DNA of 64,000 nucleotides, taken from the NCBI GenBank assembly GCA_001247695.2, contig LGRX02033488.1, positions 22,557 to 86,556 of the forward strand. The letters run 5' to 3'. The position numbers were made by a program, and so were the translations under genes. Shown piece after piece: positions 12,736 through 46,117 of this stretch (its first letter is position 1; each line of letters starts with the position of its first letter). Source of the stretch: Cymbomonas tetramitiformis (Eukaryota > Chlorophyta > Pyramimonadophyceae > Pyramimonadales > Pyramimonadaceae). The notes beneath the pieces are model-generated. The model saw only the letters and a list, made by a program, of their open reading frames with translations. It did not search any database and was not told the origin of the DNA.

Positions 12736-14650
12736 CTCTGCAAATCGGTTGTTTGCCATGCGTGGGCATCGTCAAAGGGATTATTTTTCGTTCCTCGGCC
12801 CAATGATGGTTCCTCCCCAACGCGATCATCTCCTAGCAGCTCGTTCAAGTCATCCACAGCCTCTTGCATAGGCTCGACGATGCTAGAGGTGATGTTGTGC
12901 GGAAGCCCACTATCATGAAACTCGACGTCGAATGTCTTGACGATATCGACGAGCTCCTCCATCAACATAATCTGTCAAACATGGCATGTTTCATTCGCAA
13001 CCACGACCGAAAAAAATAGCAAGAAAAATGACTTTGAGTCGCACCTTGTTGATTTCTGCCTCTCCGATATTTAAGGGCTCCGAACTTAGGTGCTTGCCAA
13101 GCTCCCCCACCGTGATAGAGTCATAACGACTCTGTGCAGCATTCTCCTTGCCGTGCAACATACCGATGACTCGCTCAACGTCCATGTCCAAATCAATATC
13201 AATACCGATAATATCAATAGAAAATGCTCTTACCGCCCGTGCGAGCACTCCGATCCCATCCCGAAGCCATGCTCGCATCACTCTTGAATTGACGTTCGTG
13301 TCCCGCTCTTTTTCCACATTCGCGTCACCTTCAAGATCATCGGATGTTTCATGGTCCTCGACAACTTGCTCCTCCTCGTAAGCATCACTACCGCCCCCGA
13401 CGTATTCACGTACATCAAGTCCTTCAGGAACCCCGTCCTCGGGGAATGCACTCCACGTCTCCTCGTCGAAATCCTCTAAACGAAATGGGGGGACGAGATA
13501 TTCTCCAGGACGCCATGGATCAAGGATGCCAGATTCGAAGTATGAGTGGTAAGTACGTAAGAACGCATGCTACTCTCGTACCGCATTTCACCGCACCCTC
13601 ATCAACTTGAAGGTGTCATTCTTCCCTTGGACTTTATACACAACGATTTCCGTGTCTTTTGGCGCTCGGGGCAATTGCTTTGCCACGTGTGAAATGTCGT
13701 TCACAAAGTTTATGCACGAGCCAGAATATCCCAACTGCCCGCCAGATAGTTGGAACACCGAGGTGATGGTTATAATAGGGCTTATCAAAGCTTCTTCAAT
13801 CGGAGTCAAGGTCCCCCATGTGGTCCGTAAACGATGCCACTCGATTTGCCAGGCAGTTGCATTATGCGCGGGCATCCTCATATCCAAATCCAACCCGTTC
13901 TCCGGGCACATGAAAGAAGGGTATTGTTGACAAGACTCGCAGAAGTTGGTCACCGGATGAGGGAGTCCATGCTTACAACCTCGTTCCAAACAGTTCGGAC
14001 AGGTATGTATCAAATTAGGAATTGATTCCAGACCCTCAAAATAGCGGTCGACATGCTCAGTTTTCTCAGCCGAACTCATTTCCGAGTGATACTCCCCAAC
14101 GCGTACGCCACCCGGCAAACCGGCCTTTCGTAAGGCTTTCACTACATCCAAGTCGCTTAGTTCCAATCCTTCACTCGCGATACCCGAGGCTGCCCGTTCT
14201 TTTTCTTGATCGCGCGACTTGCCGGTGTTGGAAGTCTTACATTTTCCAGGACGGTCACCCGCGTCTGGAGGTCGTAAAAAGCGTAAATAGGATCGGTTTT
14301 TCGGCTCGATGTTGCCCTCGCTAGCCTTGTCCACAGATTCATACAGCTTATCACTGACAACATGCGGCAGATCTTCGTCATCCGTGTCGTTAAGATTCAT
14401 GGCGGTCGCTTTCGCGTCTCCAAAGGCTTGAAACAAATTGACGGGAGAAACCCCGGTGTGGGGTTGAGGATCAAGTGCTCCCGTCGAGTGCCTCCCATAG
14501 TGGGTCGCGTCTTTTAAACGCCGGCGGGTACGTGGCGTGGTTTTCGACGGCGGCCTACCCCGTCTCTTCACGCCTTGCATTCCGGACCCTAAGGCGGGGC
14601 TTCGCTTAGAAGGCGTAGTTGGCGATAGAGCAAAAGGGATGGGGGACGTG

Positions 14651-14655
14651 ATAGC
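14651..14655. repeat. Target-site duplication, left copy (ATAGC)
   Basis: This is the five-base sequence immediately outside the left LTR. The identical ATAGC lies at 29244-29248 outside the right LTR. Removing the element plus one copy restores the Helitron frame exactly. Confidence 0.95.
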
Positions 14656-15082
14656 TGTAGGAGTCTACACTTGACTTCTTCTCTTCTTTACGGTTTCGGA
14701 CTTATACTATTCTACACTTATTAAACGACCGCACGAGGTATGCTTACGATTGGTCAACTATAAGACTTCGGTTTCGTAAATCTTAATAGTTATGCTTATG
14801 CTTTCAAGTGTATGCTTTCAATACACAATATACAGCGGATACGGCTCTTACTTTTTATGTTACAATTCTCAGTTCAGTTCATCTCTCCGAAACGGGTTAC
14901 TCTTAGAGTTCTTATACATTCAGGAACTCTTTCCATAACTCAACTGTACTGAGTACTCCGTACAACAGTCTAGGCACCTCACATCAACATCATTCTGATC
15001 GGTCCTACTGTACTCCGTACTGAGTACTCCTGCGTTTTATACTTAGCCGTTTTTCTTGCTCTTGTGCTTGCCTCCTAGCACA
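14656..15082 (-). repeat. 3' LTR (left)
   Basis: This 427-bp terminal repeat is nearly identical to 28817-29243. It runs TGTAGGAG...CTCCTAGCACA, with short inverted termini. It contains repeated GTACTGAGTACTCC-type palindromes that could be regulatory. Confidence 0.95.
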
Positions 15083-15097
15083 ACTCCCCCCCCCTTA
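15083..15097 (-). promoter_or_regulatory. Polypurine tract
   Basis: On the coding (minus) strand the bases immediately before the 3' LTR read TAAGGGGGGGGGAGT. This is the standard position and composition of the plus-strand DNA primer of LTR elements. Confidence 0.85.
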
Positions 15098-15803
15098 GGG
15101 AAGGTCACGTCCACGCTGACCACGTCGGACCAGTAAAGTTTTTATACAGATCTTCTACTGTTGCTCTGAATGATTATACAGGTCTCAGCCGCCTGTTGTC
15201 TGGGATGACATTACACTTCCCAAGACACACCGCAATAAGGAGATCGACCTCTTAAGCACAAGGGTCGGCCTCTCACCGGTCTGCCATCTGCACTACCAGG
15301 CTCCCCCAAGGCTCAAGGTTTCACATCCATTACCACGCTCAAGGTTTTAAACCTCCCAACACGGTACACTTACAGGGGATGACAATAGGTTTGCCAATTA
15401 CCTGACAGTTCTCGGGATGCCGGCCCGGAGGAAAGGTTTTAAACCTTCACCGCCTCCTCGGAGTGCTAGAGCTTTTACCCAGATCTCCAACTGCTGCCCG
15501 GTCGTGCCAGGTCCGGAGCCAATGCTCTCGTGAAATGGATTATACAGATTTCCACCTGTTGCCTGGTCGCGCCGAGGCTAGAGCCACTGCTCACTTGGAT
15601 AGATTACCCAGGTTCTCACCTGCCGCTTGGTCATACCAAGGCTTAGAGCCACTGCTCAAATGGATTATACAGATTTCCACCTGTTGCCTGGCTGTGCCGA
15701 GGCTAGAGCCACTGCTCTCTCGGATGGATTACCCAGGTTCTCACCTGCCGCCTGGTCTCGCCAAGGCTGGAGCCACCGCTCTTCCCGACGCTCCCCAACG
15801 CTC
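15098..15803 (-). other. 3' untranslated region of the Gypsy element with internal repeats
   Basis: No gene is present. Between about 15535 and 15790 there are two copies of a unit of about 124 bp (each starting TGGATTATACAGATTTCCAC), and each copy is itself a diverged doublet. A further degenerate copy is near 15150. A plus-strand open frame across this area (15463-16512) is antisense to pol and lacks protein character. Confidence 0.7.
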
Positions 15804-18800
15804 TCAATCGCTAAGACCACTCGCGTCAGATTCCCATCCGCCCTCAGGTATGATCGTCACCTCCGCTCGCACTCCCGCTAACGCTATCGGTTCCGGCTCA
15901 AACTCGGGCGGGTCACTCTCAACAACAGCTGACTGGACTAAAACGCTCATCTCGCTCAGATCCTCCCTGACAAGCAGTTCAGACAGGAACGCATGCACCT
16001 CTTCATGTAGGGTCAGGTTGTGGAAAAGCTGTTTTAACAGTGCTGACGGAATCCCATACAAATTCTCTCGCGCTCCCATGCCCTTCGCGAACACACCTCC
16101 GGCTCTCATCGCGCGCCCTCCTTGCGCTACTTTCTCGTGCCTACCGTGCTGCCGGAAGAACTCGCAAGGCGTATCGGAATCGCATACTCGCAAGGGTGTG
16201 CGCAACGGAACGTTGGTCCAGATGTGCGTGGGCTTCCTGTATGCGGTCCCGTATTTGCAGTACGTGACGAGGTGCGGAGCTGGTAGATTGCTCATGCAGC
16301 GACGCGTGTGCAACCCGTGGGGCTCTCTTCCCCTCGGGTTCTCAATGAAGTATGCTTCGGGCCTCAAGTACCGGATGATCTCCAATGTCCTACGAACTCG
16401 CCTGTCCGCAGCACGCAAATCTCGGATGCCTACCGTCTTCGCTTGGCTGTACTCTGTGCAAGGTGGGCTAGCCCAGACTACGTCGAAGTGTCCTGGTCTG
16501 AACTGTCGATAGTCCCATCGCATGATATCCTCGCAATGTGTGGGGCCCCACTTGGGCTGAATGTCTACAGCAACTACTTCGCTGTTGGGAAATTGCTTAG
16601 TGAACTGCCTCTCGACTGACCCGGTCCCACAAAACAATACAAGAATCCTAGACTGGCCGACTGGCTCCTTCTCAAGTGCTGCGGCTCCGTTGACTGGCGG
16701 CAGGGTGCTCTGAGCAGATACTCTCGCGAAAGTTCCTACTTCCTCATCAAACCTCTCCTCTGGCACCCATGGCATTGCTCCGTCTACCTTGAGCTCCTCC
16801 GATAGCGTGGTCCATACCGCTCCTGCGGACTCGTCGCGTCTCTTACGGACCCTAAGCTTCTCTCGCTCCACTCTCTTAGCCTCGATCCTCTCAAACTCCA
16901 ACAACGCTCGGTTGGGAACACCGGGCCTGCCGGCTCCGTCCCACTCCAGATCCTCTCGGGTCTTCCACTCGTTCTCACTGCGGGGCATTCCTGTCCACTT
17001 GACCAGGTACTCTGTCCACCTCCTGCCCTGGCGCTGGCGCGTGCGCGAACGCTCCACCCTCTCGACGTGGGTTTCCTTGCGCCCGCTGACGTCCAACGGA
17101 GGAGGGGGAATCTCCTTAGCTCTCTCAACGAAGCGGCTGCCCGACTCTACTGGCGAAAGCCGGTCCACGGTAAACACATCGTGCACTTTCCACTGCTTAG
17201 GCGTCTGCAACCTATAGGCCGACGGTGCGCCTCTATCGCTCGCGGGAAGGGCCATCTGCCTGTCGCTGTGAAAGACTTCCAGCACCCGAAGGGGCCCAAG
17301 GCGCTTCTTAAGCAACTTCTTGTGCAACCCGCGGTCGCCCGGCTGAGTGAGGTGCGTGGCATCCACCCAAACCTCATCGCCTACTGCGTAACTCCTGGAC
17401 CTGTGACGCGCGTCGTACTGGGCGATCTGTTGCTGCTGAGCTAAGAGCAGCTTCTCCCTAGCGAGCTGCAACTGGCGAACAAACTGGCGGGCTGTCTCGT
17501 GGGCTGTACCCTTTTTTACTGCTGCGCCCCTCCCCCCCTTAGCTCGGCCTCTCCGTGATGCAAGTGCTGCCTCCACGAAGAAGTCCAGCTGAGAGGCCGG
17601 AGCGTGACCATACGTCAGTTCAAAAGGGGTGAATCCCGTGACGGCGGAACGAGAGTCATTAATGGCGTACTCGACCGGGGTACACCATAAATCCCAATCG
17701 TGCTGGTTGGCGTCGACGTACGCGCGCAACATGCGTTCGACCGTGTGGTTTGTGTGCTCTGCCTGCCCATCACCTTGAGGGTGGTACGGCGTGGTAGAGG
17801 CAACCTGGACTCCCATCAACCGATGTAGCTCGAGATGCATCTCATCCCTGAAGCGGGAGTCCCGATCACAGACGATCTTCATGGGAGCGCCGTGCAAACG
17901 CCACACTTGGTCGAAATACATGCGCGCGATCTGTGCAGCTGAGCTGTCAGCGTAAAGCATGGGAACTACGTGCACCATCTTGGACAACTTGTCCGTGAAG
18001 GTAGCAAACGCGTCGTACCCTCGCTCTGTGCGGGGCAGCCCAGTGACGAAGTCGATACTAACCACTTGCCACAGTCTTACTGGGACTTGCAGGGGGTTAA
18101 GCTGACCGTCTGGATACCCGTTGCGTGGCCGGGTCTGTTGGCACACAACGCAGGATTTGCACCAGTCGGTGACATCCTTGCTCATGCGTGGCCACCAAAA
18201 GCGACGGGATACCCTGTCCAGTGTCTTATCCCTTCCTGTGTGCCCTGCTGCTGGGGACTCGTGTGCTTCGCGCATCACCAGCTCTCTGAGGGGGGAATCC
18301 TGAGCTAGCACTAGCTGATACCGCCCTTCTGCCACTCGCCATATCATGTCGTCTACCATGCGAAATGTGTCTGTCCTCTGATGTGGGGCTGCGATCAGTT
18401 CCTCCTTCAACGAGCCGAGGTACTGGCTGCGTTCGTATTCCGCTTGCAAGGCGCGGACGAACTCATCAGCCTTCAGTGGGCCTGATGCCGCCCTGGCCCT
18501 TGCTGCAACCCCTGTAGTGACTAAAGGCTCGTCGGGTTCTGCCTCACTGTCCTTTCGCGCAGGCGGCGCTCGGGGCTTTGCCCTGCTGGCTGCTGGGGCC
18601 CACACCAGAAGGACCGGCCAGCGCAGCGGGGGTCGACCTCCATCAGGGGACTCGAAGAGGTGGTTGGGACGACCTTTTTCGTCCTTCGTGTCAAAGACTT
18701 TGACCGGATGAAGCCCATACTTGGGGTGAATCAACCGCCTCCAGGGGGCGTCATAGTCTGGCAGAAGGAACATCGCCGAGGTGTTTTCCGGATCGGCGCG

Positions 18801-21800
18801 CCACTCAGCAAGGAAATGCCGAAGAATTCTTTCTATCAAGTCTGAATCCTTCGTGTAAGGGGGGTTGCACCAAACGTGTTTCCCGCGCCACTTTTCCTTC
18901 AAGCAATCGGTCCAATAGGTGTCAACCTGCCGGTTAACGCCCATGGAGTCGCAACACGCGTCAACGTCAAACACCCCGTACTGGGCTGCTATCTCCTCAA
19001 AGCGCTCCCTGATCAGCTTCCAGTCCTGGCGATCTACGACCTGGTCGTAGTGGGAGCTACTTTCTGGGGGCTTAACGGGCTCAGGTACCTTTCCGGCTGC
19101 CTTTGGATGACTCTGGGCCTCAGGGTGGGGGAACTTCGGGTGACTCTGGACTTCTGCTGTGGCCTGTTCCCTAGCTCGGTCTGCTCTGGTCATGACTGCT
19201 AGCGATTCGGCATCCCTCAAGGATTTCTCGCCTACTGCTAGGGTGGCAGCTGCGTCCAGCCAAAGGGCCGGCGACTCTACCCACGTGAGCCCATTCAGAT
19301 GGGTGAGCTCACCAATGACCGGTGCTGGACTGGTGGGAGGGAAGGACTCGTCCTCGGAATCACTATACTCGAAGGTGGCGCCTAAGACAGATGTGGGATC
19401 CTCGTCCCCTTCGCATCTCTTGCCTTTCGGCTCAGAGTACTCGGGTCCATCAGATCCATCGGTGGTGCAATCCACTGCCCCGAGGACAGAGGTAGGATCC
19501 TCGTCCTCTTCGGACCCCTTGCCTGCCGGTGCGGAGTCTCTGGGCCCATCCGTGGCGCGATCCACAATCCCTTTTTCCTTCAACCCTTCTCTGGCTGACA
19601 TTTCCTGATAGTCTGGTCGCCGGGACTGCGCGTCTGGTACTACTAAACAGCGCCCTGGCACGTGCTCCATCTGATGGACTCCTACCTCTACCAGGTCCTC
19701 GTACCAGCGAGCCTGACGTCGGCTGAGCTCCCTAGCTGGGGCGAAGAGCCACTGAAGGGGTTTATGGTCTCCCATGAGCTTAAATGATGTGAAAATCAGA
19801 TAATGTCTCCAGGTGACCGTGGTGCAGTGATGGATGGCACAAAGCTCCCGTTCCCCAGCGTGATAGTTCTGCTCTGCGCTGGAGAACTGCCGGCTTTCAA
19901 AGGCCAAGGGCTGTAAGCCTCGTCCCTGATCCTGCATGAGTACACCCCCTAGTGCTACTCCACTGGCATCTGTCTGCACAAAGAAGGGTCTGGAACCGTC
20001 TGCTGCACCCTTTTGATCGGGTAGGGCCAAGGCTGGGGAGGAGATCAAGGCAGTTTTTAGCTGTTTAAATGCTGCCTTTTCATTCTCGCCCCAGGTCCAG
20101 TCCACGCCGGATTTGGTGAGGCGGGTCAACGGGTACGCGATATCTGCGAAGTTCTCGATGTACCTCCGGTAGAAGCCACACATGCCCAGAAACTGTCGCA
20201 CGTGTGTGACAGTTTCTAGGTCTGGCCAATCGCGTACCGACGCAACCTTATCCTGCTGTGGACGACATCCATCCCGATCCACCACATGCCCTAGGAACCG
20301 GACTGATCGCTTGCACAATTTGACTTTCGACTTTTTGAGGTAGACTGAATTCTTTCGGCATGCCTCCAGGACCTGGCGGAGGTGGTCGAGGTGTACCTCA
20401 TGGGCGCTCTTACCCGGAACCTCAGCCGAGAAAATCATGATGTCATCTACAAATACTCTGCAAAAGGGTAGGTGCCCGAGGTACTGTTGCATCATCCTTT
20501 GCCAGGTACTTGGGGAGTTTGACAATCCCATAGGCATGACCAACCACTCGTACGCTCCAAAGTGCGTAGTCATTGCGGTTTTCTCCACGTCCTCTGCTTT
20601 CATAGGGACCTGCCAAAATCCCCAAAGGGCATCCATCGTAGAGAAGACGGTAGCCCCTTGTAGATCATCTAGGAGACTCTGGACATCCGGGAGGGGGTAC
20701 TTGTCCTTGACTGTGATCTCATTGATCTGTCTGTAGTCAATGACTAGACGCAACTCCTTGGGATTACTCGGCTTGGGGACCATCAGCACAGGGCAGCCCC
20801 ACGGAGAGGCCGAGGGTCGTATGTACCCTTTGGCTAAGAGCTCATCTAGCTGTTGCCGGAGTTGCCGCAACTCCTCCTGCGACAGCTTGTACCCTCGCCG
20901 GTGCAAGGCGTTCCCATTCCAATCTGGCCTGAGCCGGACGCCGGACTTGAATTCCCTTGACTGGACTGATTCCGGCAGCTCTGTGCAAATGACATCTGCG
21001 AACTCCTTTTCCAGGTCCCTAAGCTGCTGCCAGATTTCCGGCGACACCGTCTCGTCTATCTCGTCCTCCGGCGGTTCCGGGGAGGCCTGAGCAGTCTGTG
21101 GGGCTGGCGGCGAGGTAGTACCTGGCGGGGCGGCCGGTACCGGCGGGTCTGTGGTCTGCGGAGCTGGCGGCGGGACTGGTGCCGAGGCTCGCGACTTCTG
21201 ACTCTGAGGACTCGGGACAGTGGGGACTTTTGGTCCCGGTGGCTGCTCGGTGGAGGGGCCACTTTCAGCACCAGGCTGACCGACTGCTGCGACCTGGTCA
21301 CGCCAACGCACTCGCTTACGCCGTGCTCGGGGTCGTCGCTCCGCGACCAGACCCCGGCCCTGCTGGAGCGCCGCGGCTGCCTGCGCGTGCCAGGTGGGTG
21401 GCTTCCCGGCCGCGTGATCCTCTATCGCCTGCCTACGCACCGCTGGCGGAAGCAACGCAAATGCTCCGTTCGCCTCCTGTTTGCTAGCGAAAAAGCTGAG
21501 AGGGTCAGGGTGATCCCCGGCCTCGTCGACCGTACTCGCAAATCCCTGTGGCCTAATATCCTCGACCACCGCCCCTACTCTCTGCAAATGACACGCTCCT
21601 TCCACGTCACTATAGCCGGACTCGGAACTGTCCGAGACCAACCCTCCCGGCCCCTCAGACTCCTCAGCTCCGTCCGGCACCGCTGCGCTGGGACGCACGC
21701 TGACTTCACCATCCTCGGACCCGGAGGAGGGTTCTGACGCTAGGCCTGCTACAACATCGTTGGGGGAATCTTCGTCGGAGTCTCCCCCCCCCTTGTTGCA

Positions 21801-23933
21801 GGCCAACGCGCCAAAAGTCCCATCGGGGCCGAGGTAGACGACGAAAGCCTGCTCCTCTCTGTTTCGGAGGGTCCGCAGGTCCCGGCGAGCCCGACGTTGG
21901 CTCAAAAGGACTCCCTGTACCAGTGCCATTGCCGTGTCCTTGGACCGACTGGGGTCCGGTGACCCCGGCGAACAGCCGGTGATGACGACCTCTTCCCTGC
22001 CCTTGGTGAACCGGACCGAACCCCAGTTCTTATAATCCAGCGTAACCGGGGAAAGGTTCGCCAGCCAAGGACCCCCCAGGATGACATCCACCTTGAGGTC
22101 GAGTGGCATTACCCGAAGCTCAACCTGCTGGCCGTAAGACCCCTTCGACGTCTCAGCAAGGAGCTTGGGCCTGATGCAGGAATTAGCATCATATGTGGTG
22201 CCGTCAGCCACTCGAACCCGCATGGCTTGCTCGTGGCGCACCGGCTTGACGCCGGAGAGCCTCTGCAGTGTACTCTTTGCGATGATATTGGTGGATGCTC
22301 CCGAATCCACTAACACCTTGACTCTGACGCCCGCAATCCAGGCCCAAAACAGCAACAACGTCGGTGTGCGACTGTGCCTGTCGAAACTCCTCGGGCGCGC
22401 TCCCATCGAGGACACCGCTGCCAGGGACTCACACCAGCTCGGACTGATATCGCCGTCCTGCATTATGCAGTCCAGGCGGGTGACTGACGTTTCTGCGTCG
22501 GAGTCACAGTCCGGGAGGCAGTAAGTACACGCGTCCGCTAGCAGGCCGATGGCGACTGCTTTCTGAACTGCGCTGCGCTCTGGGAAGTCTGGGGGGGACA
22601 CCGCGACTTGGACTGACGCTGCAGCCAGTTTAGCCGCTATGTGCTTTCTGACTTGCTCGTCCCGGTGCATCAGCTCATTGTCTTGCTGAAGTTCCCTATT
22701 CTCCCTTTCCAACTCCTCCTTTACGAAGGCGTGGAAGTCCGCATGGCGTTCTGTTGAGGTAGAAGCCGGGTCCCTACCCTCCAACTCGTACCTGCGCTGC
22801 AATCGAGAGGTTCGAAGCGCCTTGTCTTCAGGAGTCAGCCATGGTCTGCGTTTCGGGCCCAAAGCCTGGCGAGCCCTGCTTCGGGTCAACCACGGCCGAC
22901 TGGGCTTTGAAGTTCTCTCTGGTGGTGAGAGTTCTTCTCCTTCGGCAGGCTTGGGTTTGGCAACGCGAACAAACCGTCCGAACTCCTGATCCAAGATGGC
23001 TTTGCGTCGGCGATTGAACTCGCGCACCCTGACGAGCCGCTTCAAGCGCTTATCTAACTCTTCTCGATTCAACTGGGGCTTACTAGTCGTGGGTCCAAGC
23101 TTCTGGCTCATCCGCCTTTGCCCTGCCCTCCAAAGCGCAAGGGACTTGACCGGCCGGACCTCCGACTCTTCCAGCTTTAGATACCTTTCTAGCGCCCTGA
23201 TGGCGGAACGCAGGCGAGCACTTGGCTGCTGGGCCTGAAAGGCTTTCCTAACTCTGGGGGGTAAACGCTGAGCTCTGAACTTCCAGTGCCCGCGAACTCT
23301 CGCAACATCCGACCCCTGGTTCTCCAGGTGCTGTTGGTAGACTGCCCGTGGCTCAACTGTGTGGCTCGACCGGTTTTTACCCCGGGTGTCCGCACCGGTG
23401 ATCCAACAGAGCAGCTCCCACGGCTCCTCGGGACGCGGAACTGAGGCGGTCGCTGGGGTTCTGGCGGACTTCCAGAAGTTTGCCTGCTCTCTTTGGACGC
23501 GCTGCTCGACCTGTTCCCGCTCAGGAGGCTCTGGGCTTTCCGTGCGGGTGGCGGCTAGCATGTCTAAACCTTCCTGCTCATACCTCTCGACTCGACTCTG
23601 GCTCTTGAGGTGGCGCCTGGCGCTGCCACTAAGGTGTCTCCCACACCTTCTCCACCTATCATGCAGCACCTGCATCGCTGTGGACGCCGGCGCGGGGCCC
23701 TTTTGTCCCCCTGACCCCGCAGTGACGGGGCCCGCGCCCTTTACTGCGGGGAGGACGCCCCGGGCTGGGGAGCGTCCTCCTGGACAAAATCCAAACCGAT
23801 GGCAGCCAAAGCTTCCTCCACCGACTCGTCCCCTATTAACGCCAGGGTGTCCTCCAGGAGGCACTTGGCCCACTCCTTCGGGCGCTGGCTCGCCTGCGGA
23901 CAGTCGCGGGCATAATGGTCCATGCTCTTGCAC
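15804..23933 (-). CDS. Gypsy pol polyprotein: PR-RT-RNaseH-adenine MTase-IN-chromodomain-C5 MTase
   Basis: The frame has 2,709 codons. Visible domains by residue are: aspartic protease near 530-630 (VLVDSGAS); RT about 1030-1216 (LRLVIDYRQIN, FVDD at 1161-1164); RNase H about 1315-1432 (QTDASG). An adenine-type methyltransferase-like domain follows at about 1630-1785 (VWCNPPYT, NPPY at 1690-1693). Integrase has the H-H-C-C finger at about 1891-1931 and catalytic D1961, D2023 and E2059. The chromodomain is at about 2286-2345 (EYLVKWTG). A cytosine-C5 methyltransferase-like domain is at about 2427-2645 (LFCGTGS, SPPCTEYS with Cys2492, IENP at 2531-2533). The first ~65 codons overlap gag in the -1 frame, so pol is probably made by -1 frameshifting from gag and the ATG at 23933 may not be a start. 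I do not recognise a classic slippery heptamer. Residues 1-520 and 640-960 are low-complexity or unrecognised. No internal stops are seen. Confidence 0.93.
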   Translation of the reverse strand: MQEHGPLCPRLSAGEPAPEGVGQVPPGGHPGVNRGRVGGGSFGCHRFGFCPGGRSPARGVLPAVKGAGPVTAGSGGQKGPAPASTAMQVLHDRWRRCGRHLSGSARRHLKSQSRVERYEQEGLDMLAATRTESPEPPEREQVEQRVQREQANFWKSARTPATASVPRPEEPWELLCWITGADTRGKNRSSHTVEPRAVYQQHLENQGSDVARVRGHWKFRAQRLPPRVRKAFQAQQPSARLRSAIRALERYLKLEESEVRPVKSLALWRAGQRRMSQKLGPTTSKPQLNREELDKRLKRLVRVREFNRRRKAILDQEFGRFVRVAKPKPAEGEELSPPERTSKPSRPWLTRSRARQALGPKRRPWLTPEDKALRTSRLQRRYELEGRDPASTSTERHADFHAFVKEELERENRELQQDNELMHRDEQVRKHIAAKLAAASVQVAVSPPDFPERSAVQKAVAIGLLADACTYCLPDCDSDAETSVTRLDCIMQDGDISPSWCESLAAVSSMGARPRSFDRHSRTPTLLLFWAWIAGVRVKVLVDSGASTNIIAKSTLQRLSGVKPVRHEQAMRVRVADGTTYDANSCIRPKLLAETSKGSYGQQVELRVMPLDLKVDVILGGPWLANLSPVTLDYKNWGSVRFTKGREEVVITGCSPGSPDPSRSKDTAMALVQGVLLSQRRARRDLRTLRNREEQAFVVYLGPDGTFGALACNKGGGDSDEDSPNDVVAGLASEPSSGSEDGEVSVRPSAAVPDGAEESEGPGGLVSDSSESGYSDVEGACHLQRVGAVVEDIRPQGFASTVDEAGDHPDPLSFFASKQEANGAFALLPPAVRRQAIEDHAAGKPPTWHAQAAAALQQGRGLVAERRPRARRKRVRWRDQVAAVGQPGAESGPSTEQPPGPKVPTVPSPQSQKSRASAPVPPPAPQTTDPPVPAAPPGTTSPPAPQTAQASPEPPEDEIDETVSPEIWQQLRDLEKEFADVICTELPESVQSREFKSGVRLRPDWNGNALHRRGYKLSQEELRQLRQQLDELLAKGYIRPSASPWGCPVLMVPKPSNPKELRLVIDYRQINEITVKDKYPLPDVQSLLDDLQGATVFSTMDALWGFWQVPMKAEDVEKTAMTTHFGAYEWLVMPMGLSNSPSTWQRMMQQYLGHLPFCRVFVDDIMIFSAEVPGKSAHEVHLDHLRQVLEACRKNSVYLKKSKVKLCKRSVRFLGHVVDRDGCRPQQDKVASVRDWPDLETVTHVRQFLGMCGFYRRYIENFADIAYPLTRLTKSGVDWTWGENEKAAFKQLKTALISSPALALPDQKGAADGSRPFFVQTDASGVALGGVLMQDQGRGLQPLAFESRQFSSAEQNYHAGERELCAIHHCTTVTWRHYLIFTSFKLMGDHKPLQWLFAPARELSRRQARWYEDLVEVGVHQMEHVPGRCLVVPDAQSRRPDYQEMSAREGLKEKGIVDRATDGPRDSAPAGKGSEEDEDPTSVLGAVDCTTDGSDGPEYSEPKGKRCEGDEDPTSVLGATFEYSDSEDESFPPTSPAPVIGELTHLNGLTWVESPALWLDAAATLAVGEKSLRDAESLAVMTRADRAREQATAEVQSHPKFPHPEAQSHPKAAGKVPEPVKPPESSSHYDQVVDRQDWKLIRERFEEIAAQYGVFDVDACCDSMGVNRQVDTYWTDCLKEKWRGKHVWCNPPYTKDSDLIERILRHFLAEWRADPENTSAMFLLPDYDAPWRRLIHPKYGLHPVKVFDTKDEKGRPNHLFESPDGGRPPLRWPVLLVWAPAASRAKPRAPPARKDSEAEPDEPLVTTGVAARARAASGPLKADEFVRALQAEYERSQYLGSLKEELIAAPHQRTDTFRMVDDMIWRVAEGRYQLVLAQDSPLRELVMREAHESPAAGHTGRDKTLDRVSRRFWWPRMSKDVTDWCKSCVVCQQTRPRNGYPDGQLNPLQVPVRLWQVVSIDFVTGLPRTERGYDAFATFTDKLSKMVHVVPMLYADSSAAQIARMYFDQVWRLHGAPMKIVCDRDSRFRDEMHLELHRLMGVQVASTTPYHPQGDGQAEHTNHTVERMLRAYVDANQHDWDLWCTPVEYAINDSRSAVTGFTPFELTYGHAPASQLDFFVEAALASRRGRAKGGRGAAVKKGTAHETARQFVRQLQLAREKLLLAQQQQIAQYDARHRSRSYAVGDEVWVDATHLTQPGDRGLHKKLLKKRLGPLRVLEVFHSDRQMALPASDRGAPSAYRLQTPKQWKVHDVFTVDRLSPVESGSRFVERAKEIPPPPLDVSGRKETHVERVERSRTRQRQGRRWTEYLVKWTGMPRSENEWKTREDLEWDGAGRPGVPNRALLEFERIEAKRVEREKLRVRKRRDESAGAVWTTLSEELKVDGAMPWVPEERFDEEVGTFARVSAQSTLPPVNGAAALEKEPVGQSRILVLFCGTGSVERQFTKQFPNSEVVAVDIQPKWGPTHCEDIMRWDYRQFRPGHFDVVWASPPCTEYSQAKTVGIRDLRAADRRVRRTLEIIRYLRPEAYFIENPRGREPHGLHTRRCMSNLPAPHLVTYCKYGTAYRKPTHIWTNVPLRTPLRVCDSDTPCEFFRQHGRHEKVAQGGRAMRAGGVFAKGMGARENLYGIPSALLKQLFHNLTLHEEVHAFLSELLVREDLSEMSVLVQSAVVESDPPEFEPEPIALAGVRAEVTIIPEGGWESDASGLSD
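15999..16655 (-). other. Cytosine-C5 DNA methyltransferase-like domain of pol
   Basis: This is a domain within pol (residues about 2427-2645). The AdoMet-binding motif I (LVLFCGTGSVERQF), motif IV with the catalytic Cys (SPPCTEYS) and motif VI (ENP, where ENV is commoner) are in the standard order and roughly standard spacing. A further conserved-looking block (YGTAYRKPTHIWTN) follows. A C-terminal tail of about 60 residues closes the protein. The order matches C5 methyltransferases of the Dcm/phage type. Whether it modifies DNA is not shown. Position after the chromodomain suggests it travels with the integrase. Confidence 0.8.
18579..19046 (-). other. N6-adenine methyltransferase-like (NPPY) domain of pol
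   Basis: This is a domain within pol (residues about 1630-1785), between RNase H and the integrase zinc finger. YGVFDVDACC, then WRGKHVWCNPPYTKD and MFLLPDYDAPWRRL, follow the pattern of phage-type Dam proteins: an acidic strand, NPPY as catalytic motif IV, then a hydrophobic strand ending LP. A classical FxGxG motif is not obvious. It is joined to flanking domains by Pro/Ser/Glu-rich linkers. DNA is the likely substrate by family, but RNA or loss of activity cannot be excluded. Confidence 0.7.
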
Positions 23934-26900
23934 AGACGGCAGCCCTCGTACTCTGGGGAGCCGAGTCGTTGCCCTGTGGGTGTCGGAGCGCCAGCGGATG
24001 TCGCCATGGCTAGCAGCTCCTCCGTGACATCTACGTGGGCCAGCAGCTGGACCGAGCGGCTCGTCTTATCCTGGCTCTGCCGCAACTCCCGCTCAGCCTC
24101 TATGGCCCAAGTCAGGAGTTCGTGGCGGCCTTTACTGGCCGTCCGGCTCAGAGTCAGAACCGAAGCGCCTTTCCTCTCGGCTATAAGGAAGACCTTCCTC
24201 CTTATCTCCGGTATCAATCCCGTAAGGAATATCTCCAGCAGCTCCTCTTCCGGCACCGGAGAGGTGAGCTCGTGGGCAGCCAGCATGCTCACGATGTCGT
24301 GAGCAAGGTGCACCCCGTCCCAGAACTCGCGGACCGTGCGAGTCTGTCTGTCCTGACTTTGACGCACGCGACGCAGGAACGGACCGATCGACGCCATTTC
24401 CCCCTTGTCGGGCATCACCAGTTGCGCCAAGGGAACCACTATGACGTCCAAGGTGAGGTTCTTACCTTCCCGAGCCTCCGTCAACACCGAGGAAAGCTCG
24501 CGGTACTCGGAGCTGAGTTTGCCGAAGCAGTGTCTGGCCACTTCTGACAGCAGGGAGTGGTCCGACAACACCTTCTCCTCACCCCCGCTCTCTAGTGGTC
24601 CCAGACGCGCCATCTCCATGGCGTAGCGCACCGGCTCCAGTTCCCGAACCTCCCTGACTTGCCGAACAAATCGGAGGAGCCGACCAAAGACGTGGGACGA
24701 CCCCTCCACCTCTGTGTGGTATTTGTCCACTGCCTTCTCCATGGCTCTGGTGGCCTCCTTGAGAGCGTGCTGCTCGTCCTTACGACTGTAATGGCTCCGG
24801 GGCTCCCTGTAACGAGAGGAAGACGAGAAGGTGAACTGGCTGTCGCCATCCCCGTCTTCGCCATCGCCGCCAGGGTCCTCGTCCGGACTCCCCGGGCCTC
24901 CCGGCCCTCCAGGGTCACCGCCCCCCGAGCCACCAGGACCACCATGACTGCCGGCACCGGGCATCTCCGAAAGCTCGTTTGGCTCCGAGTGCTCCAGTTG
25001 AGGGACCATCCCCCCCCCGTCTCCCGGTGTGTCTGCCGCCTTAGGAATCGGAGGTGGCATCACAGCCGGAAAGTGGTCGAAAGCACCGGGCCACACGTCC
25101 GCGGCGCAAAACCCACACACCGGCAGGTACACCTTTTTCATGAACGCCACCACACTTCTCTTAGCGCTCGCCTGACACGCCCACATACGCACCGGGCTCT
25201 CCTCGTGCCCGCACCCACAGCGAGCGCAGCTCTCTGCGACGGACGCCAAGGCCGTCGTGAGACTGTGAATCACCTGGGCCCCGAGGACCCTGTCCTCGTC
25301 CGAGAACTTTGTCTTCAGGCACTGCCTGATCTGGTTGGAAGGGTGTAAGCACCCGGCGACCTGACCAAGGGTGCGATACCTACGAGCAGCGTCGTAAAAC
25401 AGGCGCTGGGCATCGATCCCCGAGGTGGCATACCCGACCACGTGCTTCCGGAGGGCGTCGCAGACCTGTATAGGAAGGGAAATAAAGTCCCATGAGTGCG
25501 GTGGAGACGCTGTCACGTCCGCGCGCGACTCCTCCGGAGGGCTTTGAACGTCCCGGTTCTCGACGTCACAGGTGACGACGGAAGCCGGCTCTACCAGCTC
25601 ATGTCCCTCTCGGGAGATGGGCGTCTCCTGAACCGGACTCGACGCTGCCGCTGAGGGCCCCCGAGCGTCTGACTCCACGGGCCCTGGGGGCGAGGCCTGA
25701 ACCAGGGCGAGCCTTTGGACTTGTGACTCTATGACCGCCTGCAGCCTCTCCTCCAGCTGGGCCTCGGCTGCCGCTCGCCGCTCCTCGGCGGCTACCTGCT
25801 GAGCGACGCTCTCGTCGACAGCCAACTGCCGGGCAGTCTCCCGGGCTTCTGCGGCCAGCCGGTCTGCAGCCCAGCGCTCTTCGACAGCGCGTCGCTCGGA
25901 GACCCTGCGTTCCTCGGCAGCGCGCTGATCGGAGATCCTGCGCTCCTCGGCAGCTCTTTGACTCTCTTGGAGTTGCCGAGACAGCTGTTCCAGGCGAGCC
26001 TCGGCAGCTGCCTCCCGAGCTTGCGACTCCTTCTGCCAGGCTTCCTTCAGCTCTTGCAGGTCCTGACTGTTCCTGCTCGAAGTGGACTCCGGGGACGACG
26101 ACGTGTTCCCTGAGGAAGTCGGACCGGGGTGCGGGACCGATGGTGCTCGACTGGGCTTCCGGGTGCGAGGCACCGGGCGACTGGGGCCGCTCGGCTTAGG
26201 CGCCTGAGTCCTGGGCCTCGGACGTTCCGCGGGATGCTCTTCCTCCGATGAGGACGAGAGGGGAGCAAACCGGTTCGACCAGTTCCCACCGGGGGCTGCG
26301 GAACTCGGAGGTGCTGCACCTGACTTCCTAAGACCCCTGTGTGACTTCCGGGTGCGGCCGCTCATTCTGACGGCCGCGACGACCGCTCTCCTTACCTCCT
26401 GGAGGTCCGCCCCTTGGCGTACCAGCTCCCCTGGTCTGCCGGCGTTGATGGCAAAGACAGAGAATCTACACCTCTCAAGGGAGTTGTGAGGGTCCTCGCG
26501 CTTTTGCTGCATCAACACCCTGGACTCGGAGACTGACTGCTGGTGGATCTCCAGGCGATAAGCGCCGTCCTCGGAGAGCCCATAGTCCTTGAGCTGGAAC
26601 CACATTAGCCCTGACAGCGGGTGGTCTTTCCCCAGGCGCTTTAGGCCTCGACGGATGTCCTGCCACATAGACTCCTGGTCGGAATCCGAGCAAGAGCTGA
26701 CACCGGATGAGGTTCCCGCCTTCCTTACCGGACGGCGGGCACTCGTTCCCTGGGACGAGTCCGAGCTGACTGGGGTCGTCCTGGGGAGCCGGCGCCACTC
26801 GCGAAGACACCTCCTGCCCATCTGGGTCATCCGGTGTCTCCGGGCTCCAACCCACCAGGTGCTCCTCTCCTTGGCGAGCATCGTCTGCTGGTGCCATGCC

Positions 26901-28033
26901 ATGAAGACAGCTCCAGCTTGACGTCTGCCTCTGCGCCACAGACCCTGTGTCTGGACGACATGCTGGCGCCATGCTGCGAAAGAGGACTCGACCCGGCGCC
27001 GACTGCCTTTGTCAAACAGGCCTTGAAGTTGGGCGACCTGTTGGGTGACGTCATTCCACGCTTGGAATGCCAGGCGCTGGAGCTCGCGCTGATGCGCTGA
27101 CTGGTCCGTCCTGGCCCTCCATGCGACCCACGCAAGCCGCGCTGTTGCGCGCTGACGAGATGGCAGGGAGACTCTCGCACGTCGTTGCGCTGAATTCAGC
27201 GCCCAGGTGCTCCATTGACGGAGGGCCAATGCGAGCATGGACTGACGTCGCTCTCCTCGCCAAGCCGGATTGGGCTGGATGCGAGACTCGCGCCCCCGTG
27301 ACTGGACGACGTCTAGCTGCTCTGGGCGCCGGACATCATCAGACTCCCCTTCTGCCGGGGGACTCCAGTCACTGGCTCGGTAAACCTCAAAGCGCCCTGG
27401 GGCACTGATGAGATTCCCTTGCTCGCTCCCCACGAGGGAAGAGAGGGAGGATGCTGCCGGTCCCGACGTCGGTTCCTGACGGACGACCCTACTACTCGCA
27501 CTCCTGCTGGACGCAGGGAGTGGGGAGAAGGGAGCTGCCGAGGGGTTCAACCCCTTAGCAGAGCGGTCCGAGTCCGACCCGGAGCCGGCGCCTGCCGCCG
27601 GCGGTGCCGGAGCCTCGGGCGACGCACGCTTCCGGCGCGCCGGCTGCCGTAGCGCCGAGCTCAATGCGAGCTCGGACACTGGCTCAACCTCACTGACCCT
27701 CGCTGGTGAAGGGGTGTTTGGTGGCGAGGCCCTGGGGGGCCCACCAGACAACCCTGGAGGGGCTCTCAGGGGCGTGCGCGCCGGTGTAACCTCGAGGGTT
27801 TCACCGACGTATTGGCGCGCAAGCGCGCGCCGCACTCCCCCCCCCCTCTCACGGGAGCGCCAATCCCGGCTGTCTGACCCGCCTGCTGCGCCCCAGAACT
27901 CCCCAGAGCCTGGGCCGGCTGGCAGGTTCGCAGCGCGAGACCCCGACCGACCGGACCCCACGGCCGAGCCGGGGGCGGCGCCGGCCCGACCCCCCCCCAC
28001 GCCGGCCCGACCGACCGAGGCATTCCTCCTCAT
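23741..28033 (-). CDS. Gypsy gag polyprotein (long, with CCHC zinc knuckle)
   Basis: 1,430 codons with ATG at 28033; the usual Gypsy gag is 300-500 residues. Residues 1-250 are Gly/Ala/Pro/Ser/Arg-rich. Residues 270-415 have a repeated [L/F]xxW motif (W277, W305, W326, W355, W380, W413). Residues 660-775 are a Glu/Arg/Ala-rich predicted coiled coil. Cys/His pairs at 936-976 (CARCGCGH, then CGFC) look like an extra zinc-binding module. Residues 1010-1075 are Gly/Asp-rich. The retrotransposon gag core appears to be about 1085-1340, followed by the CCHC knuckle CRLCKSMDHYARDC at 1365-1378. The product should form the cytoplasmic particle that packages the RNA. It ends in overlap with pol, which lies in the -1 frame. 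Long N-terminal extensions of this kind are unusual and unassigned. Confidence 0.9.
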   Translation of the reverse strand: MRRNASVGRAGVGGGRAGAAPGSAVGSGRSGSRAANLPAGPGSGEFWGAAGGSDSRDWRSRERGGGVRRALARQYVGETLEVTPARTPLRAPPGLSGGPPRASPPNTPSPARVSEVEPVSELALSSALRQPARRKRASPEAPAPPAAGAGSGSDSDRSAKGLNPSAAPFSPLPASSRSASSRVVRQEPTSGPAASSLSSLVGSEQGNLISAPGRFEVYRASDWSPPAEGESDDVRRPEQLDVVQSRGRESRIQPNPAWRGERRQSMLALALRQWSTWALNSAQRRARVSLPSRQRATARLAWVAWRARTDQSAHQRELQRLAFQAWNDVTQQVAQLQGLFDKGSRRRVESSFAAWRQHVVQTQGLWRRGRRQAGAVFMAWHQQTMLAKERSTWWVGARRHRMTQMGRRCLREWRRLPRTTPVSSDSSQGTSARRPVRKAGTSSGVSSCSDSDQESMWQDIRRGLKRLGKDHPLSGLMWFQLKDYGLSEDGAYRLEIHQQSVSESRVLMQQKREDPHNSLERCRFSVFAINAGRPGELVRQGADLQEVRRAVVAAVRMSGRTRKSHRGLRKSGAAPPSSAAPGGNWSNRFAPLSSSSEEEHPAERPRPRTQAPKPSGPSRPVPRTRKPSRAPSVPHPGPTSSGNTSSSPESTSSRNSQDLQELKEAWQKESQAREAAAEARLEQLSRQLQESQRAAEERRISDQRAAEERRVSERRAVEERWAADRLAAEARETARQLAVDESVAQQVAAEERRAAAEAQLEERLQAVIESQVQRLALVQASPPGPVESDARGPSAAASSPVQETPISREGHELVEPASVVTCDVENRDVQSPPEESRADVTASPPHSWDFISLPIQVCDALRKHVVGYATSGIDAQRLFYDAARRYRTLGQVAGCLHPSNQIRQCLKTKFSDEDRVLGAQVIHSLTTALASVAESCARCGCGHEESPVRMWACQASAKRSVVAFMKKVYLPVCGFCAADVWPGAFDHFPAVMPPPIPKAADTPGDGGGMVPQLEHSEPNELSEMPGAGSHGGPGGSGGGDPGGPGGPGSPDEDPGGDGEDGDGDSQFTFSSSSRYREPRSHYSRKDEQHALKEATRAMEKAVDKYHTEVEGSSHVFGRLLRFVRQVREVRELEPVRYAMEMARLGPLESGGEEKVLSDHSLLSEVARHCFGKLSSEYRELSSVLTEAREGKNLTLDVIVVPLAQLVMPDKGEMASIGPFLRRVRQSQDRQTRTVREFWDGVHLAHDIVSMLAAHELTSPVPEEELLEIFLTGLIPEIRRKVFLIAERKGASVLTLSRTASKGRHELLTWAIEAERELRQSQDKTSRSVQLLAHVDVTEELLAMATSAGAPTPTGQRLGSPEYEGCRLCKSMDHYARDCPQASQRPKEWAKCLLEDTLALIGDESVEEALAAIGLDFVQEDAPQPGASSPQ

Positions 28034-28795
28034 CTGAATACATGGGCATAGTATGCGTGCTATGCGTGAGATTCAATCTAGCTAAAGCCGAAAGTGTACA
28101 CGACACACGTGGCAACTAGCAACCGCCGATCTAGAAATTTACCACTTGCGCCCGAGCACAAGTGGCTACACCGGCCGAAGCGCGGAGATTTCTGGAAAGG
28201 AAGATCCTAGAAAGCTAAAGCCCCATGGGGGACATCAAACGTTGCACGCCCGCAAATTAACCAATTGAAAAGCGGTTGGTATGGCAACTAGCACCCGATC
28301 CCAGGAATACGCCACTTGCGCGCGAGCACAAGTAAGCACACCGGCCGAAGCGCGGAGATTCCCGAATAGGGGGGACTAGAAGGCTAAATTAAAGGTAGGG
28401 GAATTCCCGAACCAACCCCGAATTTCAGCAAAGGCTTACGCAAAATTGAAAAATTTGCGCAGCGCTTCCGCCGCGAAGGGTCGAAATTGCCGAAAAACGG
28501 AGGCGATTCGGATTTCCCGCACCTGCGAGTCCAAAAAGCACGTATGCGTGCTATGCGTGTATGCGTGCTAGGACTAAGGCAACGCTCGCACCTTAAAAGA
28601 TTGTCGTCGAGCTAGATTTCTCCACACCGACGCGGCTCCAAGCAACCTGGAACCCTCAATCCCACACACCACCGCGCAACAAGAACGAGAGCACAGGCAT
28701 TCTCGATTTCGTAGTGCAAGTACTCGCTAACTAATCGCACAAGGCGGGGCGGGTTGATCAGAATTTGCGCAAGAAGGACAAGGAAGCTACGTGAA
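28034..28795 (-). other. Gypsy leader (5' untranslated region) with a direct repeat
   Basis: There is no long open frame. Two diverged direct copies of about 115-125 bp lie at about 28110-28228 and 28283-28397. They share GGCAACTAGCA, CCACTTGCG, GAGCACAAGT and CACCGGCCGAAGCGCGGAGA. The palindrome-rich repeat may be a packaging or translation element of the genomic RNA. Short GTATGCGTGCTATGCGTG repeats occur near 28053 and 28540-28570. Confidence 0.65.
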
Positions 28796-28813
28796 AACAC
28801 GAACTAATTACCA
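28796..28813 (-). promoter_or_regulatory. Primer-binding site
   Basis: On the minus strand, three bases after the 5' LTR, the sequence reads TGGTAATTAGTTCGTG. TGG is the expected complement of a tRNA CCA end, and the position is standard. I cannot name the matching tRNA. Confidence 0.75.
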
Positions 28814-28816
28814 TTT

Positions 28817-29243
28817 TGTAGGAGTCTACACTTGACTTCTTCTCTTCTTTACGGTTTCGGACTTATACTATTCTACACTTATTAAACGACCGCACGAGGT
28901 ATGCTTACGATTGGTCAACTATAAGACTTCGGTTTCGTAAATCTTAATAGTTATGCTTATGCTTTCAAGTGTATGCTTTCAATACACAATATACAGCGGA
29001 TACGGCTCTTACTTTTTATGTTACAATTCTCAGTTCAGTTCATCTCTCCGAAACGGGTTACTCTTAGAGTTCTTATACATTCAGGAACTCTTTCCATAAC
29101 TCAACTGTACTGAGTACTCCGTACAACAGTCTAGGCACCTCACATCAACATCATTCTGATCGGTCCTACTGTACTCCGTACTGAGTACTTCTGCGTTTTA
29201 TACTTAGCCGTTTTTCTTGCTCTTGTGCTTGCCTCCTAGCACA
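28817..29243 (-). repeat. 5' LTR (right)
   Basis: This is the 427-bp LTR that should carry the promoter for the leftward transcript. It differs from the left LTR at one position that I can find. Confidence 0.95.
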
Positions 29244-29248
29244 ATAGC
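29244..29248. repeat. Target-site duplication, right copy (ATAGC)
   Basis: Identical to 14651-14655. It marks the insertion of the Gypsy element by its integrase. Confidence 0.95.
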
Positions 29249-40500: not shown

Positions 40501-40535
40501 GCAGCATCTCTACGAAGTGCTCCTTAAAGTCAGCA
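34561..40535. other. Gene-poor region
   Basis: No gene can be supported. Open frames are short and on both strands. The largest (39182-39739, plus) has no recognisable motif and is not protein-like near its end. The region contains the hairpin at 37355-37403 and a weak tRNA-like segment at 38964-39040. The final part, about 40300-40535, may be the start of the LINE remnant. Confidence 0.5.
37355..37403. repeat. Near-perfect inverted repeat (20-bp arms, 9-bp loop)
   Basis: The arms at 37355-37374 and 37384-37403 are complementary at 19 of 20 positions. The loop is AAATCGCGT. No T-run follows directly, though a poly-T tract starts about 16 bases later (37419). It could form a hairpin in DNA or RNA. 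Confidence 0.75.
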
Positions 40536-40921
40536 GTGCTTGGTAAATTCAGGTACGGCCTCCACCTCGGAATATATACCCATGGTGAGATTCAGAAAAT
40601 TGAAAACCAGTTGGGAGCAGCACTGAAACGGATTGACGGACTCCCGGCAAACGGCACCCCAAATGAACTCGCCACAGAAGAAAAGGAGGAGTATGGACTG
40701 GGGCTACAGTCCCTACAAGCAATATATGCACAAGAGGTCTATTCGGGGCTGGCGGAAGCGATTCAAAGCGAAGAGGACAAAGGGGTGCAGATGGGATATG
40801 GCAAAAGAGAAAGAAACCTGCAAACCAGGCAAAGAATGTCGCAAGTCAGCAGGTCCACGGCAGGGCTGCTGGAAGACACTTCCAGCAAAGAGGCCACAGC
40901 GAAAACAGGGACAAGCTAAAA

Positions 40922-43639: not shown

Positions 43640-44195
43640 GAGGAAGCAATAGCAGCAGGTGTCTGGGACCCAAGAGGGGGACTGAACATGGAACACATGC
43701 AGCGATGGCAGGGCCACTGTCAAACGGTCAACAAAGCGGAGCTCACAGCCATATATATGGCGCTAATGCTGGATGAAAACACGGGCAAAGGAGAGGTAGG
43801 TATATGCACCAACAGCCTAACCTCTCTACCAAATACAAAACATGAAAAGAAGGCCCCATACACTGGAAAGGCACGTGCACCGAGATGTGCTATGGAAGAT
43901 ATTGAAACAAATACAGATGCTCAACCGGGAAGGAACCAAGGTGGCCCTATACAAAGTCAAGGCACATGTAGGGATACATGGGAACGAAATGGAGGATGAG
44001 GTAGCAAAAAAGGCCTGTGTGGAAGGAGTATATGGCCTAAACCACGACAACACGGACACCGTAAGGATAGTGGCCATTTGCAGGACTACGGAAAGAAAGT
44101 TGGACGGGTACCAAGCGATAGTTAACCATGTGAGAAGCAGAGTACGGGAGGCAAAAATGACAGGGAAAGACAATGTTATACAACGGATGAAATGA
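43590..44195 (+). pseudogene. LINE RNase H domain, inactivated
   Basis: VYTDGSQR (first Asp), KAELTAIYMALML (Glu) and ICTNSLTSL (where the third catalytic Asp is Asn) lie in one frame. KVKAHVGIHGNEMEDEVAKKA (the His/Asp end, HxGxxGNExxD) continues in the next frame after a shift near 43825. A stop at 43637 also interrupts it. The domain order and residues are those of retroelement RNase HI. The Asp-to-Asn change, the stop and the frameshift all argue against activity. Confidence 0.75.
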
Positions 44196-45854: not shown

Positions 45855-46117
45855 GAGTCAAGGGGACTCAAAGCCCCACACCCCCAAAAAAGGGTGTTTT
45901 TTTCTTTTCCTTTTACTGTTGGTGTAAGCAGCAGAGCCGCTCTGTGCCATTGCTTCTCCTTGTGTTGCCTCCCAGTGTTGCCGCGGCACGGGGATGATGT
46001 AGTGCTCACAGGAAGGCGTATGGAGGGCGGAGGGTGCCCAAGTAGGTCAAGGAAGCAGGGAGGTGTGCTGGGGGGCGACCAAGCAGATAATGGAAGGCAC
46101 TCCTGGGAGGAACCCAC

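Follow-up and report, generated by a model that had tools for sequence, protein, structure and literature searches.

A Ty3/Gypsy retrotransposon of Cymbomonas tetramitiformis with two methyltransferase-type domains in one polyprotein

An element carrying two methyltransferase folds

A single long terminal repeat (LTR) retrotransposon lies on the minus strand at positions 14656-29243 of a 64-kb stretch of DNA from the green alga Cymbomonas tetramitiformis (the whole of this stretch is called the window below). Its gag and pol open reading frames (ORFs) are intact and its LTRs almost identical, as the initial annotation had stated (Table 1); the single LTR mismatch and the flanking ATAGC copies indicate a young insertion. 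The paired TG...CA LTRs with a short target-site duplication, the order protease, reverse transcriptase, RNase H and integrase in the polyprotein (Pol), and the chromodomain that follows the integrase are those of a Ty3/Gypsy element. In addition, Pol contains an adenine-type, Dam-like domain between RNase H and integrase and a C5-cytosine-type domain after the chromodomain. The presence of both methyltransferase-type domains in one Gypsy Pol, first proposed from the bare sequence, is confirmed by profiles, predicted folds, motifs and relatives.

In a Pfam scan of the whole Pol, the Dam profile PF05869 matched residues 1634-1702 with 33.9 bits against a cut-off of 28.1, the coverage being partial (profile positions 8-78 of 169), and the same profile was matched at E <= 0.01 by 14 of 15 family members scanned. 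The PHROG family phrog_111 matched residues 1642-1725 (E 8e-12). The NCBIfam profile TIGR01712 (phage_N6A_met) gave 23.6 bits, short of its cut-off of 97.05, and a sequence search of the PDB with the Dam alignment produced no match up to E 10. Judged by sequence, the domain is a divergent relative of the phage enzymes and not a phage equivalog. Phage Dam enzymes are active on DNA. The NPPY motif falls within the interval in which it had been predicted, and so do the SPPC and ENP motifs of the second domain.

For the C5 domain, PF00145 (DNA_methylase) matched residues 2461-2534 with 19.1 bits in the whole-Pol scan, under its cut-off of 22, and exceeded that cut-off (23.8 bits) when the domain was scanned by itself; phrog_757 matched residues 2422-2581 (E 9e-16). 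On the methyltransferase fold are found what we take to be motifs I, IV (PPC) and VI (EN) of C5 enzymes. Three Cymbomonas proteins (P0077, P0079 and P0086) are 96-98% identical to the domain, among the matches listed. By sequence it appears to be a compact enzyme closest to the phage type. The idea that it must be a captured host Dnmt3 was rejected: phage-type enzymes match it by sequence, in comparisons where the C5 tree held no Dnmt3 rows, and DNMT3 is not among the six PDB sequences matching C5 at E <= 0.01. The C5 alignment, scanned against viral contigs, matched 33 loci at 27-39% identity, mostly over part of the domain; seven of them were entered into the C5 tree. A scan of the same kind with the whole Pol gave no match. 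In the protein P0171, a C5 enzyme of this small type (351 amino acids) is joined to a methyl-CpG-binding domain (PF01429, E 1.5e-15), likely a writer and reader of 5-methylcytosine (5mC) in one protein, as far as its domains tell.

Profiles and structure prediction thus support an S-adenosylmethionine methyltransferase fold for both segments. A chance origin of the two domains is untenable, because of the PHROG E-values and the conservation across relatives.

Elsewhere in Pol, the RVT_1, RNase H, H2C2 and chromodomain profiles exceed their Pfam cut-offs, as Dam does. H2C2 (PF17921, residues 1880-1937) is well above with 83.1 bits, and Chromo (PF00385, residues 2289-2330) reaches 31.4 bits for a cut-off of 25.1 (E 1.9e-7). 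Two matches remain below: the integrase core rve (PF00665, residues 1956-2052; 20.9 bits, cut-off 32.6) and SH3_Tf2-1 (PF24626, residues 2185-2262; 22.8 bits, cut-off 30).

Table 1. Features of the element, with positions in the window and residues of Pol or Gag
Feature	Position	Strand	Remarks
Target-site duplication ATAGC, left copy	14651..14655		equals 29244-29248
3' LTR, TG...CA, 427 bp	14656..15082	-	426/427 identical to 5' LTR
Polypurine tract adjoining 3' LTR	15083..15096	-	AAGGGGGGGGGAGT on minus strand; putative, assigned by position
pol ORF, 2709 amino acids + stop	15804..23933	-	open frame
C5-cytosine methyltransferase domain, Pol 2428-2610	16104..16652	-	
ENP motif VI, Pol 2531-2533	16335..16343	-	motif table across relatives
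SPPC motif IV with catalytic Cys, Pol 2489-2492	16458..16469	-	motif table across relatives
SH3-like domain + chromodomain, Pol 2182-2333	16935..17390	-	PF24626, PF00385
Integrase, H2C2 zinc domain + core, Pol 1881-2109	17607..18293	-	PF17921, PF00665
Dam-like adenine methyltransferase domain, Pol 1634-1783	18585..19034	-	
NPPY catalytic motif, Pol 1690-1693	18855..18866	-	NPP[YF] in 43/53 Dam rows
RNase H, Pol 1279-1416	19686..20099	-	PF17917/PF17919; Pfam span 1281-1415
Reverse transcriptase, Pol 1023-1259	20157..20867	-	PF00078 (RVT_1) at 1052-1217, E 3.5e-30
Aspartic protease, Pol 527-633	22035..22355	-	PF13650, 29.9 bits, cut-off 24.3
gag ORF, 1430 amino acids	23741..28033	-	open frame; overlaps pol in a different frame
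Gag CCHC zinc knuckle, Gag 1364-1380	23894..23944	-	PF00098, 19.3 bits, slightly under cut-off 20.8
Candidate primer-binding site, just inside 5' LTR	28800..28816	-	AAATGGTAATTAGTTCG; by position alone
5' LTR, 427 bp	28817..29243	-	pair to 3' LTR, one mismatch
Target-site duplication ATAGC, right copy	29244..29248		equals 14651-14655

Relatives and joint inheritance of the two domains

Relatives were sought with Pol residues 1600-2709 as query, a choice favouring elements with the Dam and C5 domains, by scoring the 7967 candidates that shared most words with it; 65 proteins were obtained, 18 of them named Cymbomonas tetramitiformis. A search with the C5 domain listed 120 proteins of 1595, and one with the Dam region of a 1627-amino-acid relative, aimed at DIRS elements, gave 11 proteins including the query, all with Gypsy-type domains. 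The order reverse transcriptase, RNase H, Dam, integrase, chromodomain, C5 is shared by 41 of 71 Pol sequences (P0001-P0072 minus P0002, which is the Gag of the window), a proportion that is biased upward and cannot stand for Gypsy elements in general, because the searches used the Dam and C5 parts. The protease was detected in 35 of the 41, and C5 is incomplete in two (P0024, P0028). Among 10 loci found by scanning genome contigs, one (L035, NHEN01000032.1) belongs to a Verrucomicrobiaceae metagenome-assembled genome, TMED86, presumably marine from its name; it contains an open frame running from RNase H to C5 of a Gypsy Pol, 63% identical to P0030, and is most likely eukaryotic DNA binned in error.

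The motifs were tabulated in 53 Dam and 45 C5 rows, three of the latter being cut (P0018, P0024, P0028). All 42 C5 rows with uncut motif possess the catalytic Cys (41 SPPC, one SPDC) and 41 of them possess ENP. On the Dam side, NPP[YF] is altered in 10 rows (SLSS in three; SPPH, SPPC, NLPY, DMTG, HPPF, HGLF and NVPF in one each); counting once the five rows in which Asn is changed to Ser, which cluster in the Dam tree (support 82) but not in the reverse transcriptase tree, leaves about six lineages. Residues D1658, G1665, W1674, A1720 and P1725 are invariant in 48/48 rows; for these conservation counts, 48 Dam and 37 C5 rows were used, in each of which the domain exceeds 100 amino acids. The catalytic Cys and NPPY are therefore not degenerate in all related copies, which, with the two supported folds, removes both grounds on which the initial annotation would have been refuted. 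Where both motifs are readable (n = 40), both are intact in 32 proteins, the Dam motif is altered in seven, ENP is missing in one (P0022, possibly through a gene-model fault), and none has lost both. Altered Dam motifs in P0025, P0042 and P0051 occur without readable C5, so that double loss is possible there. Judged by these motifs, the cytosine enzyme seems nearly indispensable and the adenine one optional.

For the most part, the two domains are more conserved than their flanking stretches, clearly so against distant relatives and with a mixed picture among near ones. Compared with P0003, identity is 92% for Dam and 48% for the linker between RNase H and Dam; it is 72% for C5, 61% for the stretch before it and 32% for that after it. 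Compared with the distant P0030, C5 retains 50% and Dam 40%, the linkers 19-36% and the C5 tail 12%.

Trees were built by quick searches with support from the Shimodaira-Hasegawa-like approximate likelihood ratio test (SH-aLRT) only. In that of the concatenated reverse transcriptase, RNase H and integrase (57 rows, limited to those with reverse transcriptase and integrase longer than 180 amino acids), the 40 Dam-bearing rows all fall on one side of a branch with SH-aLRT 100, and 37 of them have C5; the remaining 17 rows are without Dam, P0050 and P0052 among them having C5. The C5 tree has 162 rows. One set of 75 (support 91, unstarred) includes the 36 domains that come from Dam-bearing Pols; its other members are 12 chromodomain-C5 pieces and 27 further short proteins, some of them probably fragments of similar elements. 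The C5 domains of P0050 and P0052 are placed elsewhere, on long branches (starred branches, 99 and 100); their position outside the set tentatively suggests separate captures. Most subgroups of the replication-core tree reappear in the C5 tree, and tree distances for reverse transcriptase, Dam and C5 correlate (Spearman 0.72-0.79, 35 shared rows, Mantel p <= 0.001). On the simplest reading of these trees, the group had both domains from an early stage, and these have since been carried along with the replication core.

The chromodomain varies within the family at the positions that we take to form the aromatic methyl-lysine cage of HP1-type proteins. They are Y, W and Y in a distant branch (P0026, P0030) and H, W and M in the window's Pol. 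The chromodomain of the initial annotation stands; its role as a reader, plausible from the residues in the P0026/P0030 branch, is doubtful for the window's copy because of H/W/M at the would-be cage.

Some Pols carry further domains. A PHD finger occurs in P0027 (residues 1269-1313, between Dam and integrase) and, in precomputed Pfam domains, in P0029, both with Dam and C5. P0056 has a SET domain at 1450-1554 after the chromodomain, the place of C5 in the window's family, and P0062 is another Gypsy Pol with a SET domain; Dam and C5 were found in neither. The divergent, Dam-bearing P0048 has in the C5 place (1660-1970) a diverged tail without PPC or ENP, perhaps a dead C5 domain, which aligns weakly with C5 (hhalign P 0.0034, probability 9%) and was excluded from the C5 counts.

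Known retroelements with modification enzymes, and the surroundings of the element

The element shares with chromoviruses the order protease, reverse transcriptase, RNase H, integrase, chromodomain, as well as LTRs and a 5-bp target-site duplication. We know of no methyltransferases in ordinary chromoviruses.

The parallel drawn initially with captured cytosine methyltransferases is borne out in so far as Gypsy and DIRS cases have been reported, namely KnitGypsy-Dnmt3 of Klebsormidium and SymbioDIRS-Dnmt3 of Symbiodinium (de Mendoza et al. 2018, PMC5890265), in which a retrotransposon Pol likewise bears a C5 methyltransferase with conserved catalytic residues. It does not extend to the kind of enzyme, which is Dnmt3 in those elements whereas the present one has a compact C5 domain, apparently nearest to phage enzymes by sequence, and a second, adenine-type domain. 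In the available excerpts of that paper, adenine methyltransferases are mentioned only in DIRS elements, and the SymbioDIRS Dnmt3 is described as able to methylate CGs, its authors inferring cDNA methylation on reverse transcription. The adenine-type module is not in itself new to retrotransposons, because a DIRS Pol with reverse transcriptase and RNase H has a PF05869 domain (PMC3783388), as here. DIRS elements differ in having a tyrosine recombinase and no aspartic protease or DDE integrase, and C5 or chromodomain are unmentioned in the excerpts available; the Pfam scan of our element gave H2C2 and rve matches and no tyrosine recombinase match. Morozov et al. (2019, PMC6338049) report DAM domains in DIRS and DCM domains in Gypsy and DIRS elements, none with both being described in the portion available. 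The claim of novelty thus holds for the combination, of which no description was found in searches of open-licence PubMed Central literature, and not for the adenine-type module alone. An orchid Gypsy with an AlkB N6-methyladenosine demethylase (PMC9289625) resembles the present element in its large size and in having captured a modification enzyme; there it is an RNA demethylase in an additional ORF, here DNA-type methyltransferases within Pol. Overall, the element, whose methylating function is putative, is real and well conserved, and it belongs to a kind already known, retrotransposons with a captured DNA methyltransferase.

The genome paper of C. tetramitiformis (PMC5741210) reports three scaffolds with >10,000x coverage in which there are regions resembling a cytosine DNA methyltransferase, an RNase H domain and a chromodomain. 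They are probably pieces of the element's family, hinting at a high copy number; in the excerpts available they are not recognised as one element and an adenine methyltransferase is unmentioned.

Within the window, blastn with the LTR and the interior revealed no second copy, only short repeats within the element, and no slippery heptamer was found in the gag-pol overlap. Imperfect repeats about 125 bp apart lie in the 3' untranslated part (15475-15782); the 5' leader has another imperfect pair (28110-28388). Just outside the left LTR (13588-14580, minus strand), a 330-amino-acid ORF with DUF6570 (PF20209, E 1.4e-7) is perhaps a remnant of another mobile element; DUF6570 occurs in Helitron-type proteins. 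Positions 40001-46000 show a very strong AT skew (0.39-0.46), and the 537-amino-acid ORF there (40922-42535) has no Pfam match at E <= 0.01. Long ORFs made of amino-acid repeat runs (47797-49102 and 59322-60377) are probably tandem DNA repeats read as protein.

Possible roles of the two enzymes

The best explanation of the locus is a recently inserted, autonomous-looking chromovirus-type Ty3/Gypsy element, the ancestor of which acquired both enzymes: an adenine methyltransferase of phage-Dam or DIRS type, which would have entered between RNase H and integrase, and a small C5 enzyme of phage type, added after the chromodomain. Both would be made within Pol and packaged alongside reverse transcriptase and integrase, and would then act on double-stranded cDNA of the element itself, or on the new insertion, with C5 methylating cytosines and the Dam-like enzyme adenines. 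Maintenance methylation by the host would subsequently propagate the C5 mark and make the new copy resemble resident, gently silenced host DNA. Read from sequence, such self-methylation with host upkeep of the mark has about an even chance of being correct. Prasinophyte methylomes are reported to be under DNMT5 control (PMC12344493), so marks could be initiated by the C5 enzyme that the element brings and then copied by the host; these hosts may be without a strong de novo methyltransferase of their own. A more specific version, to which we give a rather low probability, is a two-letter label written by a whole group of Gypsy elements: C5 would add 5mC de novo, and the Dam-like domain N6-methyladenine, to the cDNA before or at integration, and the host would maintain the 5mC. 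The Dam block behind RNase H may have a common origin with that of DIRS elements, through exchange. The two marks would be partly redundant, so that one site could be altered alone, yet none of the 40 readable proteins lost both.

Several observations weigh against self-methylation by both enzymes. The predicted structure of the Dam-like domain is closest to an RNA enzyme, having the methyltransferase-core fold of PCIF1. Adenine methylation looks dispensable in some lineages, to judge from the altered NPP[YF] motifs, and the asymmetry between C5 and Dam motifs speaks against one inseparable machine. Finally, the 72% identity of C5 to that of P0003 equals that of the Dam-integrase linker (72%) and is less than that of the integrase-SH3 stretch (92%) and the integrase (96%), and between near relatives (P0003-P0005) C5 is only 70-75% identical for 91-97% in the integrase.

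The PCIF1 fold makes an RNA substrate one of two main rivals for the Dam-like domain, which could, like PCIF1, methylate the cap-adjacent or an internal adenosine of element transcripts and thereby help them to be translated, packaged or spared by RNA surveillance; C5 alone would then mark DNA. We regard this as rather unlikely: a common fold reveals no substrate, the domain groups by sequence with the phage DNA N6A family, and there was no solved PF05869 enzyme to compete with PCIF1, a PDB search with one phage Dam having found only unrelated chains. We are equally sceptical that the domain is mostly structural or DNA-binding, kept for the binding of Pol to cDNA with catalysis optional. That reading gains from the alteration of NPP[YF] in 10 of 53 rows while other Dam residues stay invariant, and from the complete C5 still found in seven of the 10 Pols with altered Dam. 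Against this, 43 of 53 rows keep NPP[YF], the Asn persists in the altered NLPY and NVPF, the invariant residues could equally serve folding or S-adenosylmethionine binding, and the three SLSS rows belong to proteins without readable C5.

Morozov et al. (2019, PMC6338049) put forward another role for the methylases of retrotransposons, action on other targets by changing host chromatin or defending against DNA viruses, the enzymes being kept as a host benefit. The sequence gives no sign of this, and the placement of both domains within Pol alongside reverse transcriptase and integrase favours action on the element's own nucleic acid, so that such a role is improbable here. An artefact, whether chimeric assembly or false profile matches, has little to recommend it besides the whole-protein PF00145 score under the curated cut-off, and we consider its likelihood negligible: the same architecture recurs in many other proteins and in the L035 contig, and the window's copy is one open frame between matching LTRs. 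Chance motifs and a chimeric contig were accordingly rejected, the relatives sharing the same domain order.

Methylation is usually seen as something that a host does to an element, at the element's cost; retroelements with DNA methyltransferases of their own invert this view. The present group, in which two writers of different chemistry are inherited in step with reverse transcriptase and integrase, provides natural replicates for asking what purpose such enzymes serve, some with both active sites intact and others with that of Dam altered. The family also suggests that phage-type C5 enzymes, besides host Dnmt3, entered Gypsy polyproteins, perhaps repeatedly.

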